Shown here piece after piece: positions 2,783 through 19,233 of a stretch of 31,474 nt of DNA (position 1 is the stretch's first letter; each line of letters opens with the position of its first letter). This DNA is from a virus: positions 1-31,474 of IMG/VR virus record IMGVR_UViG_3300042112_000219; one strand, 5' to 3'. Below the pieces are notes generated by a model. It saw only the letters and a program-made list of their open reading frames with translations. It was not told where the DNA came from and searched no databases. The translations under genes and the position numbers were made by a program.

Positions 2783-4972
2783 TTAAAATAGGCTAGGTTG
2801 AGCTTCGATATTGCGGAGGTTTGTCACAGCGTGTTCTGCGTAGGATTTCTTCAGTTCCGATCCCACAAAACGCCTGCCAAGAGTTAGCGCGCCATAGCCT
2901 TCTGATCCGATGCCCGTGAACGGCGAGTAAACCAAGTCGCCGGGATTACTCCAAAGCGTAATGGCGCGTTCGATCACGTCAAGTTGTAGCGGGCAGATGT
3001 GCTTTTCGTCCGCCTGATCGCGTGCCACTTCTCCGTTTAACACTCGGCCCTGATCTACCGTCATCCAAACCGGTGACGCCACTTCTTGCCACCAAGCAAC
3101 TGGAAATTCTGATCCGTCTTTTGTCACTGGGACCAGCGTTTCCCCCGGAGCGCGAAAAACCAGCAAGTAGTCGGCGCATCCAACACGCGAGCTGGATGAG
3201 TCGGTTTTTAGCGTTTTGTGAAGGAGCCCGTGCGCTTTGGTTCGCTGCATCTCTGTCACCGGACTCTTCCAGATGCAAATGCGCGAATGAAAAAGAAAGT
3301 CATGCTTCCAAAACGCTCGGATGATTTCGCCGCTGAAATCCTGAAACTGAATTGCGCCATGCTTCCATTTTGTCGAAAGCAAATCCACGCAATGCACGGC
3401 CACTTCGCGGCCCGGTTGCATGATCCGTTTGATCTCCTGGATTAGAAAATCAAAGTGCACCACAAAATCTGCCATGGAATCACAGTTGCCCATGTCTTGC
3501 GGATCGTTTGAGTACGTGAAGAGGTCAGCAAAAGGCGGGCTGAAAACTGAAAAATCAATCGAGCCCGTCGGGATCATTTTTGCAACTCGGACGCAGTCAC
3601 CGTGATGAACTGTCCAGTTGTTGCCAGTGTACGTGTCCACGCCTGTCTTTGCTTCAACCTTCTCAGATTTCTGAAAGGTAATTTCTGCTGCTGCTAGTTT
3701 CATTTGTTCCTGCATTTGTTCATGTTGTTCGATTTTTCGCCGGATTGATTGAAGGATGGCTCCTTCGGTCTTTGCTTGCACGATGTAGGCGTTCACTTCT
3801 TGCGTTTGGCCGAATCGGTAGCTTCGGCGCAGTGCTTGGTAAAAGTCCTCAAACGAGTAGGAAAGCCCCACAAATGCCACATTGCGGCAGTGCTGCCAGT
3901 TAAGACCAAATCCAGCAATGCTCGGCTTGGTAATAATGACGCGAGCCCGTCCTTGACTGAAATCGGACAGCAAAGACTCTTTGCGGGATGGCGCATCCGA
4001 GCCTCGCACTTCGATGGCATCCGGGATTCGCTGAGCAAGATTGTCCGCTTCGTCGTTTGTGTTGCACCACACGATCCAAGGCTCATCTGATCCATTCACG
4101 AGATTTGCGACAGCATCAGAGCGGTCTGCTGATGTCATGCGCATTTCACGGTGCATGGTGGTCGCTGACAATGTCGCAATTCGGAACAACTCCTCCCCGG
4201 TATTTGTGCTGATGTCAGCGTCCACCAGAATCGTTTGCATGTTGAGTGCTGGCAAATCGTACCCATCGTTTTTGAAACCAATATCTGAAGGCTTGGAAAC
4301 GCACGCCGCCCAGCTTGCCAGCCACTTCCAAAACTGGCTCTCAGCGTGCTTTTTCAGGCGCCAGTCGCCAGTGTTGAACGTGTCGTTCACAAAGAACGTG
4401 GCCAGCATCTGCGCTGGCGAGCAAATGCCAAGAAAGTCAGCGTGCTGTCCCAGTTCGGTGTAGTCGTTCGGTGATGGTGTCGCGGTACACGCCAGCCTGT
4501 AAGGAGTCTGCGAAAAAGCATCTGTCAGTGCCTTTCTTGTCTTGCCCGTAAAAGATTTGAGAATACTGCTCTCGTCCAAAACCACCCCGGCAAACACTGA
4601 GCAGTCAAAATGTTCCAGCTTCTCGTAGTTGGTGATCCAAACTCCCGGGGAGTTGATTTCGTCACCGCTGGCAATCTGATTTGCCTCGATGCCAAACTTT
4701 TGCGCCTCCCTAGCGGTCTGTGATGCCACAGCAAGCGGCGTCAAAATAAGCACACTGCCGCCAGTGTGCCTCACAACCTGGCTCGCCCATTCAAGCTGCT
4801 GGGCAGTCTTGCCAAGCCCGCAGTCCTCAAACAGTGCGCAACGGCCCTTCCTAACCGCCCAACGCACGATGTGCGCTTGCCAATCAAACAACGGCGCAAT
4901 AATCGGCAAAGGCTCAAAACCGGCATCCCGCACGGTCTTTTGCTTGCCCGTAATGTAGTCGTCGTAAGTCAT
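2783..4972 (-). CDS. SNF2-like helicase fused to N6/N4-type DNA methyltransferase (729 aa)
   Basis: Two-domain protein. The first 430 residues form an SF2/SNF2-type ATPase: Walker A DCGLGKT (50-56), DESS in the DEAD-box position (133-136), TATP motif III (163-166), and the C-terminal RecA-like lobe with GFGLNWQ and QALRRSYRFGQ (motif VI, about 379-389). After a helical linker (about 405-445) comes an amino-methyltransferase. The catalytic SPPF motif (478-481) precedes the SAM-binding SPFTGIGSEG (683-692), the order of beta-class enzymes. Both active sites look intact. The ATG shares an ATGA overlap with the zinc-cluster gene and has GAGGAAAG upstream, so it was chosen over a longer 14-residue extension. 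Possible roles are self-methylation against restriction or remodelling of replicating DNA; the target sequence cannot be read from the protein. Confidence 0.88.
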   Translation of the reverse strand: MTYDDYITGKQKTVRDAGFEPLPIIAPLFDWQAHIVRWAVRKGRCALFEDCGLGKTAQQLEWASQVVRHTGGSVLILTPLAVASQTAREAQKFGIEANQIASGDEINSPGVWITNYEKLEHFDCSVFAGVVLDESSILKSFTGKTRKALTDAFSQTPYRLACTATPSPNDYTELGQHADFLGICSPAQMLATFFVNDTFNTGDWRLKKHAESQFWKWLASWAACVSKPSDIGFKNDGYDLPALNMQTILVDADISTNTGEELFRIATLSATTMHREMRMTSADRSDAVANLVNGSDEPWIVWCNTNDEADNLAQRIPDAIEVRGSDAPSRKESLLSDFSQGRARVIITKPSIAGFGLNWQHCRNVAFVGLSYSFEDFYQALRRSYRFGQTQEVNAYIVQAKTEGAILQSIRRKIEQHEQMQEQMKLAAAEITFQKSEKVEAKTGVDTYTGNNWTVHHGDCVRVAKMIPTGSIDFSVFSPPFADLFTYSNDPQDMGNCDSMADFVVHFDFLIQEIKRIMQPGREVAVHCVDLLSTKWKHGAIQFQDFSGEIIRAFWKHDFLFHSRICIWKSPVTEMQRTKAHGLLHKTLKTDSSSSRVGCADYLLVFRAPGETLVPVTKDGSEFPVAWWQEVASPVWMTVDQGRVLNGEVARDQADEKHICPLQLDVIERAITLWSNPGDLVYSPFTGIGSEGYGALTLGRRFVGSELKKSYAEHAVTNLRNIEAQPSLF

Positions 4973-5523
4973 TTTGCTTTCCTCAATTTCGCCGCCATCG
5001 TCTTGTGCCCGCACGCCGCCGTGCAGTGCTTAATCCGCACGTCACCAGCCCGCCGCTCAAACATGTTGCCGCACCAAGCGCACGGGACTGTCACGGTTCC
5101 CACAACTCGAGTCTGTGCCGCAATTCTGGCCAGCTCGATCCGGCAGGCCATGCCGCACACCACTTGCTTTCGCTGCTGCGGCTGAAACTCAACGCCGCAC
5201 TGCTTGCAAGTTTTTTTGGGCAGTCTGCACACCCGACACCGAGTCTCTGTGGCGAACTTGTCGCGGCTGTACTCGCACCGACAGACCGAACAGCTTGCCC
5301 AAACTGACCTGCTGCCAAGTTTGGACGCCTTAGCTGTTGTTGGGTCCGGTAGCTTAATCAGCCCTTTTCTCACCGCATTTCGCACCAGTTGAGGCGCGGA
5401 TGCCATGAGTGACAGGTTGTCGTCCTCCGGCTCAACTGCGGGACCAAAGTCCCAGTCCTTTGTCCGTGCCGACGGAGACCAGCATGGCTTGCCGTTGAGC
5501 AAGCCCACCATGTGGCCGCTCAT
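4969..5523 (-). CDS. Cysteine-rich multi-zinc-ribbon protein (184 aa)
   Basis: Unrecognised protein with a zinc-binding C-terminal half. From about residue 77, cysteine pairs recur: CSVCRCEY and CRVC, then CKQCG and VVCGMAC, then CAWCG and HCTAACGH. This gives roughly three treble-clef or ribbon-like sites. The N-terminal part (SAPQLVRNAVRKGLIKLPDP) is helical. Such proteins often bind nucleic acid. A strong AGGAGG lies about seven bases before the ATG, which also overlaps the preceding membrane-protein gene. It is directly coupled by ATGA to the helicase-methyltransferase, so it may be a DNA-targeting partner of that enzyme; this is inference only. Confidence 0.7.
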   Translation of the reverse strand: MSGHMVGLLNGKPCWSPSARTKDWDFGPAVEPEDDNLSLMASAPQLVRNAVRKGLIKLPDPTTAKASKLGSRSVWASCSVCRCEYSRDKFATETRCRVCRLPKKTCKQCGVEFQPQQRKQVVCGMACRIELARIAAQTRVVGTVTVPCAWCGNMFERRAGDVRIKHCTAACGHKTMAAKLRKAK

Positions 5524-16874: not shown

Positions 16875-17627
16875 TTATCTCCCAAAAACATCTTCTCGCC
16901 GGATCACTCCAGCGGCAACAGCGGACACTAGTCGCCGCCGCATTGCTTCAGCCTGGCGGTCATACGCAGCATCTAGGGCACGCTGGATTGTCGCTGAGTC
17001 AGTGTGGCGGTTTGGGTTGCGAGCCTTAAACTGCACCGTGTTGCCGCTTGCGCGTAGAATGACTGTGCCGTTGTTGCGAGATCGCCAGCGCCCTACCCAT
17101 TCGGGGAAATTGACACCAAGCAATGTTGCTGCTGCGCACCATCCGGCTGCCGTTGCGCCAATTGTCTTTTGTAGCAGCAATTCAACAGCAGCGCGTTTTG
17201 CCACCGTTGCTAAGTGCTTTGGCGCAGCATCAGGGTAATGTTTGTCCGGCCGCTGGTTGCGTTTGATAAACTGCACCAAAGTCTGGGGAGATGCCGCTAA
17301 TGCTTGCGCCTGATTTTGCAATTCTGAGCGTCGCGCAGGTCTTTGGACGGTCTGCAATGCTCGTGCAATCGTCTGCTCGTTACGAATCACAAGCGCACGA
17401 CGGACCGTGTTGCGGATGGCTTTTTTTGAAGCCGAAAACCCTTTTGCAAACGATCTGCCGGCCATAGGAGGCGTATACCAAAATGCGTTGCGAATGAGTC
17501 CCTTTGCTTGCTCGCGCACCACCTGTTCAACGCTGCGGCGACTGATTTGGATTGAGCGTTGCAAATAACGATTGAACCGTTGCGCAAAATATCCGGCGTC
17601 GCTTGTAACTCGGATTGCGTCACTCAT
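16875..17627 (-). CDS. Hypothetical tail protein upstream of tape measure (250 aa)
   Basis: Unrecognised, strongly basic and mostly helical (FNRYLQRSIQISRRSVEQVV, SKKAIRNTVRRALVIRNEQTIARAL), with a hydrophobic stretch near the middle (AAGWCAAATLLGVNFPEWVG). It begins inside the end of the frameshift-extended chaperone frame, overlapping eight bases, so its translation may depend on that frame. It sits between the chaperone pair and the tape measure, where some phages encode an extra minor tail protein. Confidence 0.55.
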   Translation of the reverse strand: MSDAIRVTSDAGYFAQRFNRYLQRSIQISRRSVEQVVREQAKGLIRNAFWYTPPMAGRSFAKGFSASKKAIRNTVRRALVIRNEQTIARALQTVQRPARRSELQNQAQALAASPQTLVQFIKRNQRPDKHYPDAAPKHLATVAKRAAVELLLQKTIGATAAGWCAAATLLGVNFPEWVGRWRSRNNGTVILRASGNTVQFKARNPNRHTDSATIQRALDAAYDRQAEAMRRRLVSAVAAGVIRREDVFGR

Positions 17628-17841
17628 CGTCTTCGTCCTCCGGTTGATGCGGCGTCACAAACAAGCCTTCCAATGCCATTTGTTTTCGTTTGGTAGTCCA
17701 TGCCCCGTTCCCCCATATCGCCGCGTGATAAACGCGCAACAACATTGCCAGCGGTGCTCTCCGTTGAATGTAGTCGTGCGTCCATCCGGTTTCTTGCGCC
17801 AGCACTAGGATGAATGACTCACCCCAGCCTGGCGCTGTTAG
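17620..17841 (-). CDS. Frameshift extension of tail assembly chaperone (GT-type T part, 73 aa)
   Basis: This frame has no convincing start of its own. Reading it after a -1 slip on the A-AAA-AAC site of the upstream gene adds 73 residues (LTAPGWGESFILVLAQETG onward, ending HQPEDEDDE) to give a 187-residue fusion. In lambda-like phages the second product (GT) bridges the tape measure and tail tube, and the T-like part typically has the helical content seen here (RRAPLAMLLRVYHAAIWG). The short GTG-started frame at 17805 alone was rejected as the main product because it lacks the upstream helix GWGESFILVLAQ. Confidence 0.78.
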   Translation of the reverse strand, partial: LTAPGWGESFILVLAQETGWTHDYIQRRAPLAMLLRVYHAAIWGNGAWTTKRKQMALEGLFVTPHQPEDEDDE

Positions 17842-17847
17842 TTTTTT
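17796..17847 (-). promoter_or_regulatory. Programmed -1 ribosomal frameshift signal
   Basis: The minus strand carries the slippery heptamer A-AAA-AAC (17847-17841) in the zero frame (CCA AAA AAC), followed at once by the stop TAA. Five bases downstream an RNA stem can form: GCGCCAG (17835-17829) with CTGGCGC (17802-17796), seven perfect pairs around a 26-base loop. A perfect heptamer, a stop and a spaced stem together are the classic layout of a -1 frameshift site. The heptamer sits just where tail-chaperone frameshifts are found. Confidence 0.8.
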
Positions 17848-18182
17848 GGTTGGTCCGTTCGCCCTCCCGGTTGCGGTATTACTTCCACGCGGCCCTCTTC
17901 AACGGCTTCAGCCTGCGCTCTGCACCATTCAGCCACCGGCTTTGCCAACGCCAGCGGGAAGGCCCGCGTAAAGGCTTTAATGGCTTTTAGCGCGGTCTTG
18001 TCGGATATCGCCTGTTCAACTTCTTCGGGTTCGCGGCTTTGCAGCCACGCGCACGCAATCACTTGCTCTTGGTCGCTACGCTTTGCCAGCTCGAGTTCGG
18101 CAATAGCAAATTGCGTTGTTACCGTCCACGGGCGAAGTTCCAGCGGCCCGATGATCGTGTTTTTAAGAAAAAACGGGTTCAT
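17838..18182 (-). CDS. Tail assembly chaperone, G-like (114 aa)
   Basis: Helical 114-residue protein upstream of the tape measure. It begins MNPFFLKNTIIGPLELRPWT and ends GGRTDQPKN, where the last codons form the frameshift heptamer. Family features are the mostly helical middle (QFAIAELELAKRSDQEQVIA, ALKAIKAFTRAF) and the acidic patch (SREPEEVEQAIS). In lambda-like phages gpG coats the tape measure until tube polymerisation. The ATG at 18182 shares an ATGA overlap with the previous gene; the longer frame to 18365 was rejected because that part is arginine-rich shadow sequence of the neighbour. Confidence 0.78.
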   Translation of the reverse strand: MNPFFLKNTIIGPLELRPWTVTTQFAIAELELAKRSDQEQVIACAWLQSREPEEVEQAISDKTALKAIKAFTRAFPLALAKPVAEWCRAQAEAVEEGRVEVIPQPGGRTDQPKN

Positions 18183-18616: not shown

Positions 18617-18931
18617 TTAGAGTGCGTTCTTGTAAACGGTCGCGGTGGCACTCCATCCACGGAAGTCGTCGTTCTTGGAATCAACTGAAACGTTTGTCCA
18701 AATCCCTTTTCCAGAAACTCCAGTGATGCTTGGCGTCAGGTCTCCAGCACCATATGGAGCCGTGTCTCCCTTGCCTTTAACACTTACCGTATAGGATGTG
18801 TCATACGTCCTGGCTTCAGAGTGCTGCCCCTCGGAGTTGATTAGCTGCTTAAATTCGCCCTTCATTTCCACGTCGAGCGATTCGATGATTGAGCCAGCGG
18901 GAACCAGCAAAGAAATGCCGAAGGTTGCCAT
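18617..18931 (-). CDS. Tail tube-like protein, copy B (104 aa)
   Basis: Probable tail tube or tube-associated subunit. A 104-residue beta-rich protein: MATFGISLLVPAGSIIESLD, then SYTVSVKGKGDT and SVDSKNDDFRGWSATATVY at the end. It aligns with the gene immediately upstream through the [VI]-x-KG[KE] strand and a C-terminal K/TNDDF segment followed by an alternating strand, so the two look like tandem paralogues. Short A/T-rich leader before ATG (CCAATAATT). It may be the main tube protein or a minor partner; which of the two is abundant cannot be seen. Confidence 0.55.
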   Translation of the reverse strand: MATFGISLLVPAGSIIESLDVEMKGEFKQLINSEGQHSEARTYDTSYTVSVKGKGDTAPYGAGDLTPSITGVSGKGIWTNVSVDSKNDDFRGWSATATVYKNAL

Positions 18932-18933
18932 AA

Positions 18934-19233
18934 TTATTGGAAGAGCGTGTAGGTTGCTTCAGCGGTCGAGAAATCGTCGTTAGTCTGAGAGACCTTTGAA
19001 TTGGTTAATTTTGCACCGCTAAAACTTCCTTCAGGCACTGCAAGCAAGTTTGCCTCTCCTTTTGTTTTAACCGTGGTTGTCGTAGTGCTGCGCGGCTTTG
19101 CTTGAGAAACAACCGTTTGCCCGTCTGCATCACGGATTGTGGCAAGTTCAACCACGGTTTCTTCAGTGGACTCTTGCAAGTAGCCGCTAGGTGGCGTGAC
19201 TCCAAATGTGACTGCTCCAAATGAGACGGGCAT
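18934..19233 (-). CDS. Tail tube-like protein, copy A (99 aa)
   Basis: Paralogous to the 104-residue protein just downstream: GYLQESTEETVVELATIRD, a threonine-rich strand (RSTTTTTVKTKGEANL), and KVSQTNDDFSTAEATYTLF at the C-terminus. The alternating pattern suits the beta-sandwich of tail tube proteins. The gene follows the tail-terminator-like gene with six bases between them and lies two bases before copy B. Start leader is A/T-rich (CATAAAATACT). Assignment to a tail tube rests on size, order and strand pattern. Confidence 0.55.
   Translation of the reverse strand: MPVSFGAVTFGVTPPSGYLQESTEETVVELATIRDADGQTVVSQAKPRSTTTTTVKTKGEANLLAVPEGSFSGAKLTNSKVSQTNDDFSTAEATYTLFQ

Follow-up and report, generated by a model that had tools for sequence, protein, structure and literature searches.

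We have identified what is very probably a canonical -1 programmed ribosomal frameshift of the lambda G/GT type in the putative tail assembly chaperone operon of the uncultured phage studied here. The window, that is the whole stretch of DNA analysed, is a complete IMG/VR virus record of 31,474 bases, and all features discussed in connection with the frameshift lie on its minus strand (Table 1). G and the product of the shifted frame, T, constitute an unannotated protein family of a known kind. Judged by comparison of its relatives, the frameshift is real and of an ordinary kind, and the comparative evidence for it is unusually good.

Table 1. Features of the G–T locus and its neighbourhood in the window
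Feature	Coordinates	Strand	Remarks
G ORF, 114 aa	17838..18182	-	ATG at 18182; without Pfam or PHROG match
Slippery heptamer A AAA AAC	17841..17847	-	In frame: CCA AAA AAC
0-frame stop TAA	17838..17840	-	Adjoins heptamer; 3' end of G is CCA AAA AAC TAA
Spacer, 5 nt	17836..17840	-	Heptamer to stem
Candidate stimulatory hairpin	17796..17835	-	About 17 bp, one bulge, 5-nt loop, -29.4 kcal/mol
T, -1 frame, 73 codons	17620..17841	-	From CTA at 17841 to TGA at 17622-17620; part of the predicted G-T fusion
SD-like GGGAGG	17863..17868	-	15 nt 5' of heptamer; possible but doubtful stimulator, not family-wide
250-aa gene after T	16875..17627	-	Conserved neighbour
Tape measure protein, 421 aa	15606..16871	-	PHROG tail length tape measure, E 2e-18
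Conserved ~100-aa protein 5' of G	18617..18931	-	Candidate tail tube/major tail protein, from its position

The open reading frames agree with the initial annotation, which had placed an in-frame heptamer directly before the stop of G, a -1 frame of 73 codons ending inside the next gene, and products of 114 and 187 residues (114 + 73 for the predicted G-T fusion). The ATG of G overlaps the stop of an upstream 141-aa gene, and the 3' end of T overlaps the next gene (ATG at 17627-17625) by 8 nt. The stem described initially, GCGCCAG (17835-17829) pairing with CTGGCGC (17802-17796) 5 nt after the heptamer, does exist, but its length of 7 bp was an underestimate, as the pairing extends to about 17 bp. 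With this arrangement, most ribosomes would read G through CCA AAA AAC and stop at TAA to give the 114-aa protein. A minority, paused at the site by the hairpin 5 nt downstream, would slip back by one base while Lys-tRNA occupies the P site and Asn-tRNA the A site, and would then read CTA ACA GCG and onwards into the 187-aa G-T. If lambda is a guide, the tape measure protein would be coated by many copies of G and few of G-T, and tail tube subunits would be recruited through the T part; both proteins would be gone by the time the tail is complete.

The heptamer alone proves little: AAAAAAC occurs eight times in the window against 8.05 expected, so conservation must carry the argument. Relatives were gathered by searching IMG/VR and bacterial genomes for proteins similar to G or T and not for the site, except that one of the six peptide patterns of one scan contained the site-coded PKN, which was absent from the patterns of the other scans. 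An initial scan of bacterial-genome contigs using G gave no match. For the tally, a profile placed the start of T in 93 distinct sequences and the sequence found there was then read. Of these 93 relatives, 88 have an X XXY YYZ heptamer at precisely this codon boundary (87 recovered by script, plus L029, which has A AAA AAC in place), compared with 25 of 9021 (0.28%) other in-phase positions of the same G genes. This exact position is not explained by chance. Two remote prophage members, L199 and L200, carry a heptamer of the bacterial type at a shifted site, AAAAAAG lying nine nt before the usual position. These two, together with three in-frame fusions described below, mean that the signal is not universal.

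Three heptamers, A AAA AAC, G GGA AAC and C CCA AAC, are the only ones found at the exact place in the unbiased tally of 93 sequences. In a set of 87 distinct junctions they number 48, 24 and 15, respectively, counts which describe the classes only, since the junctions were chosen for having one of these heptamers. On a tree of the G-T proteins, the heptamer labels and the fused state change at least nine times; a switch of class replaces three bases while the slippery pattern and the phase are kept. Two rival explanations of the split frames are difficult to reconcile with this pattern. In the first, RNA polymerase slips on the run of A, and the fusion is read from an edited mRNA. The site in the window does have six consecutive A, a short run for transcriptional slippage, but the 39 relatives of the 87 with GGGAAAC or CCCAAAC never have more than three A in a row at this place, and the preservation of the hairpin region downstream also speaks against it, so that we consider transcriptional slippage extremely unlikely. 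In the second, G and T are a single gene, broken by an error in sequencing or by a pseudogene mutation. Homopolymers are error-prone and a few relatives do carry a continuous ORF, but dozens of independent contigs show the split in the same phase, at three different heptamers, and both frames show coding-type selection. An artefact or a decayed gene is thus barely credible.

The selection in the two frames is apparent from the differences between close relatives, which at the first, second and third codon positions amount to 0.18/0.10/0.52 in the 0 frame of G and to 0.24/0.16/0.46 in the -1 frame of T. The third-position variability switches from the 0 frame to the -1 frame at the site. Conserved motifs of T include P.W, LA.ETGW and YHAAxWxNGAWT. 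T has no conserved start codon, and we conclude that it is reachable only through G. The alternative, that T is a separate protein translated by reinitiation or internal initiation after the stop of G with the hairpin controlling the start, draws on a GTG at 17805 in the T frame, which would open a 61-aa ORF and is followed just downstream by the 3' arm of the stem. Only 19 of 87 relatives have GTG at this codon (the others have GTA, GTT, ACT, ACC etc.); the first possible T-frame starts scatter among relatives from codon -97 to codon +41, and 18 relatives have no ATG in the stretch examined. A separate start would also leave the conserved heptamer and the in-frame fused relatives unexplained. 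We therefore regard a separately initiated T as very unlikely and a ribosomal frameshift as the probable source of the G-T protein.

The downstream hairpin is conserved as a structure. The 40-nt element of the window (z -5.6) was matched in stability by none of 200 shuffled sequences. In 38 aligned relatives, some with only 45% identity in G, the stem lies near the same place with an energy of -23 to -30 kcal/mol, and in every one of the 38 its stability exceeds the average for synonymous-codon shuffles (z -2.2 to -5.0, mean -3.2). When the structure of the window is imposed on the alignment of these 38 relatives, 94.7% of cells pair, whereas sliding the partner arm by 1-3 columns as a control reduces pairing to 43.5-53.9%. 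Five pairs show compensatory changes with both sides altered, and the structure computed by RNAalifold is nearly identical to that of the window. As expected of a -1 frameshift signal, a stable structure about 5-9 nt downstream of the heptamer is thus kept in these sequences, with compensatory changes. More distant members retain the stem (codon-shuffle z -2.6 to -4.1 in the seven IMG/VR members tested), while some remote prophages are devoid of it. The hairpins of the C CCA AAC class are weaker, with a median of -19.5 vs -27.3 kcal/mol. The initial annotation had proposed to look for the heptamer and the stem in related phages; both are kept, together with the T frame, across very divergent relatives.

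Other signal elements were also considered. A pseudoknot between the hairpin loop and downstream sequence found no support, the complementarity being no better than in shuffled sequences (2.63 vs 2.69 nt). A role of the stem as a transcription terminator was rejected, as no T-run was seen by eye 3' of the stem. Upstream of the heptamer, SD-like stretches of at least 5 nt occur in 32 of 48 A AAA AAC members, in 7 of 24 G GGA AAC members and in none of the 15 C CCA AAC members; their spacing is mostly either 7 or 15 nt. As an upstream stimulator, such an element is possible but doubtful, being limited to certain clades.

Somewhat unexpected is the strictness of the second slippery codon. The last base of the heptamer is C in 87 of 87 junctions, never giving AAT or AAG at this position, and CC directly precedes the heptamer in 85 of 87. 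Where the stop follows, ending the heptamer in T would change the encoded residue in neither frame (Asn AAC/AAT; Leu CTR/TTR), and these G genes use AAT for 40% of their Asn. A stop (TAA, TAG or TGA) comes right after the heptamer in 74 of the 87 junctions and 1-11 codons later in the remainder. In L031, L032, L055, L099 and L101, for instance, TCA follows the heptamer and the 0 frame ends 11 codons on, inside the hairpin. In E. coli, A-AAA-AAC is reportedly much less shifty than A-AAA-AAG (PMC5009743), so the efficiency of the shift in the real host is uncertain. The initial description of the signal as a textbook case and a strong one must be tempered accordingly: the frameshift site is upheld by its conservation, but A-AAA-AAC is not the strongest bacterial slippery site. 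The combination of a strict AAC and strong hairpins with the weak slippage of AAC in E. coli is the point that specialists might find unexpected. It might be that these phages are tuned to slip at Asn AAC, the ribosomes or tRNA-Asn of their hosts shifting on AAC like mammalian ribosomes, unlike those of E. coli, with stimulation by the strong hairpin; we offer this tentatively and think it rather doubtful. A lack of queuosine in the hosts is not supported as the cause of the AAC sites, since the TGT family is present in 56 of 59 sampled Verrucomicrobiota genomes, a gene presence that does not prove tRNA modification.

The initial annotation had named, as a finding that would weigh against the frameshift, relatives with the heptamer destroyed and the T part missing. 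The relatives devoid of a heptamer have in fact kept T, fused in frame to G. One Verrucomicrobiaceae genome (G001) has two copies in which G and T form a continuous 226-aa ORF with the same gene order and no heptamer, and a second fused lineage, L203, is found in another Verrucomicrobiota genome, also with no heptamer. The three fused copies, L194 (1090-1767), L196 and L203, each have a single continuous G-T ORF, and gene order is kept in L194 and L196. To judge from their sequences, these fused ORFs are a natural replacement of the frameshift by a plain in-frame fusion in two host lineages. The hairpin region of the three fused copies gives z values of 0.2, 0.1 and -1.9 against synonymous shuffles; this is suggestive of a loss of the hairpin together with the shift, the numbers being small.

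The gene neighbourhood points to the function. Portal and terminase were assigned by Pfam, and in most of the distant viral contigs checked the order is kept as a neck-type gene, two genes for ~100-aa proteins, the 141-aa gene, G-T, the 250-aa gene, the tape measure gene and genes for two further proteins. The order from neck to G-T to tape measure holds down to about 20% identity in G. The site thus has tail structural genes on one side and the tape measure gene on the other, the major tail protein upstream being a putative assignment from position. The neighbouring ~100-aa proteins (18617-18931 and 18934-19233), both conserved upstream of G, are apparently paralogues, as KGKGD...NDDF-type motifs were seen by eye to be common to the L194 copies; they may represent a duplicated tail tube protein.

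The initial annotation as tail chaperone G/GT fits the gene order and the frameshift, but is not accompanied by any sequence or fold match to a characterised chaperone. G and T have no match in Pfam, PHROGs or PDB sequences. The T model is of low confidence (pLDDT 68). The fold search, with the G model, returned nothing worth reporting in PDB; its BFVD matches were a close relative at 78% identity and two weak hits to phage proteins, all three uncharacterised. The chaperone role is inferred from the position and the frameshift. The frameshift could be real and its product something other than a tail assembly chaperone, an idea in keeping with these empty searches and with the 250-aa gene that separates T from the tape measure gene in most relatives. 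Against it, a small T in the -1 frame is as expected of a chaperone, and so is a location flanked by conserved tail genes and by the tape measure gene. In L178, moreover, the 250-aa gene is relocated upstream of the tail genes (1779-2494), which places G-T immediately before the tape measure gene, the lambda arrangement. We judge a different function unlikely and retain the chaperone reading. Among long-tailed phages, G/GT-type frameshifts are widely conserved although sequence similarity is low (PMC5009743).

The host phylum is probably Verrucomicrobiota. The nearest cultured phage is P8625 (27% identity in the portal), a siphovirus infecting Puniceicoccales (PMC4642752), and among named genomes a clear relative occurs in just one, that of a Verrucomicrobiaceae bacterium; one of the scans of bacterial genomes for relatives covered Verrucomicrobiota only. 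No homologue of G or T was found in P8625, whose 206-aa gene before the tape measure gene gives no significant profile match. P8625 gp18 was considered as an in-frame G-T relative and discarded, as the resemblance was by eye with no profile support.

Several known systems are reminiscent of the one described here. In lambda, gpG/gpGT is encoded by a small gene between the tail tube and tape measure genes, with a -1 frameshift near its 3' end and a T part that has no start of its own (PMC5009743). The present locus has the same gene placement, the same type of shift near the 3' end of G and a T lacking its own start. It differs from lambda in its strong conserved hairpin 5 nt downstream, in the 250-aa gene lying after T, ahead of the tape measure gene, and in the absence of detectable sequence or fold homology. 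The lambda heptamer is G GGA AAG, unlike the A AAA AAC of the window. The G-T frameshift family was reportedly described by Xu, Hendrix and Duda in 2004. The E. coli dnaX frameshift uses a downstream hairpin and an upstream SD-like element. Its heptamer is A AAA AAG (PMC5009743). The window resembles it in its A-run heptamer, its hairpin and a possible upstream SD-like element, and departs from it in having A AAA AAC and in the SD-like element lying 15 nt upstream, with no family-wide conservation. The haloarchaeal siphoviruses HCTV-1 and HCTV-2 have g-t sites G_GGA_AAC and A_AAA_AAC (PMC5009743). They have the same heptamers, an AAC second codon and the same G-T context, but their hosts are archaeal; the likeness noted here is between the sites.

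Our limited literature search, which is weak evidence of absence, found no paper describing this G-T family. The family would add a diverse and previously unannotated group to the G/GT frameshifts, in poorly sampled phages whose probable host phylum is Verrucomicrobiota. The set of relatives separates the parts of the signal that are kept (phase, X XXA AAC, spacer and hairpin) from those that drift, and the lineages in which a plain fusion has replaced the shift bear on why phages keep a fixed ratio of G to G-T. Annotation pipelines miss T unless the frameshift is modelled. Elsewhere in the window (2783-5014, minus strand), a 743-aa protein combines SNF2/helicase C-terminal domains and an N6_N4 DNA methylase domain in one chain.
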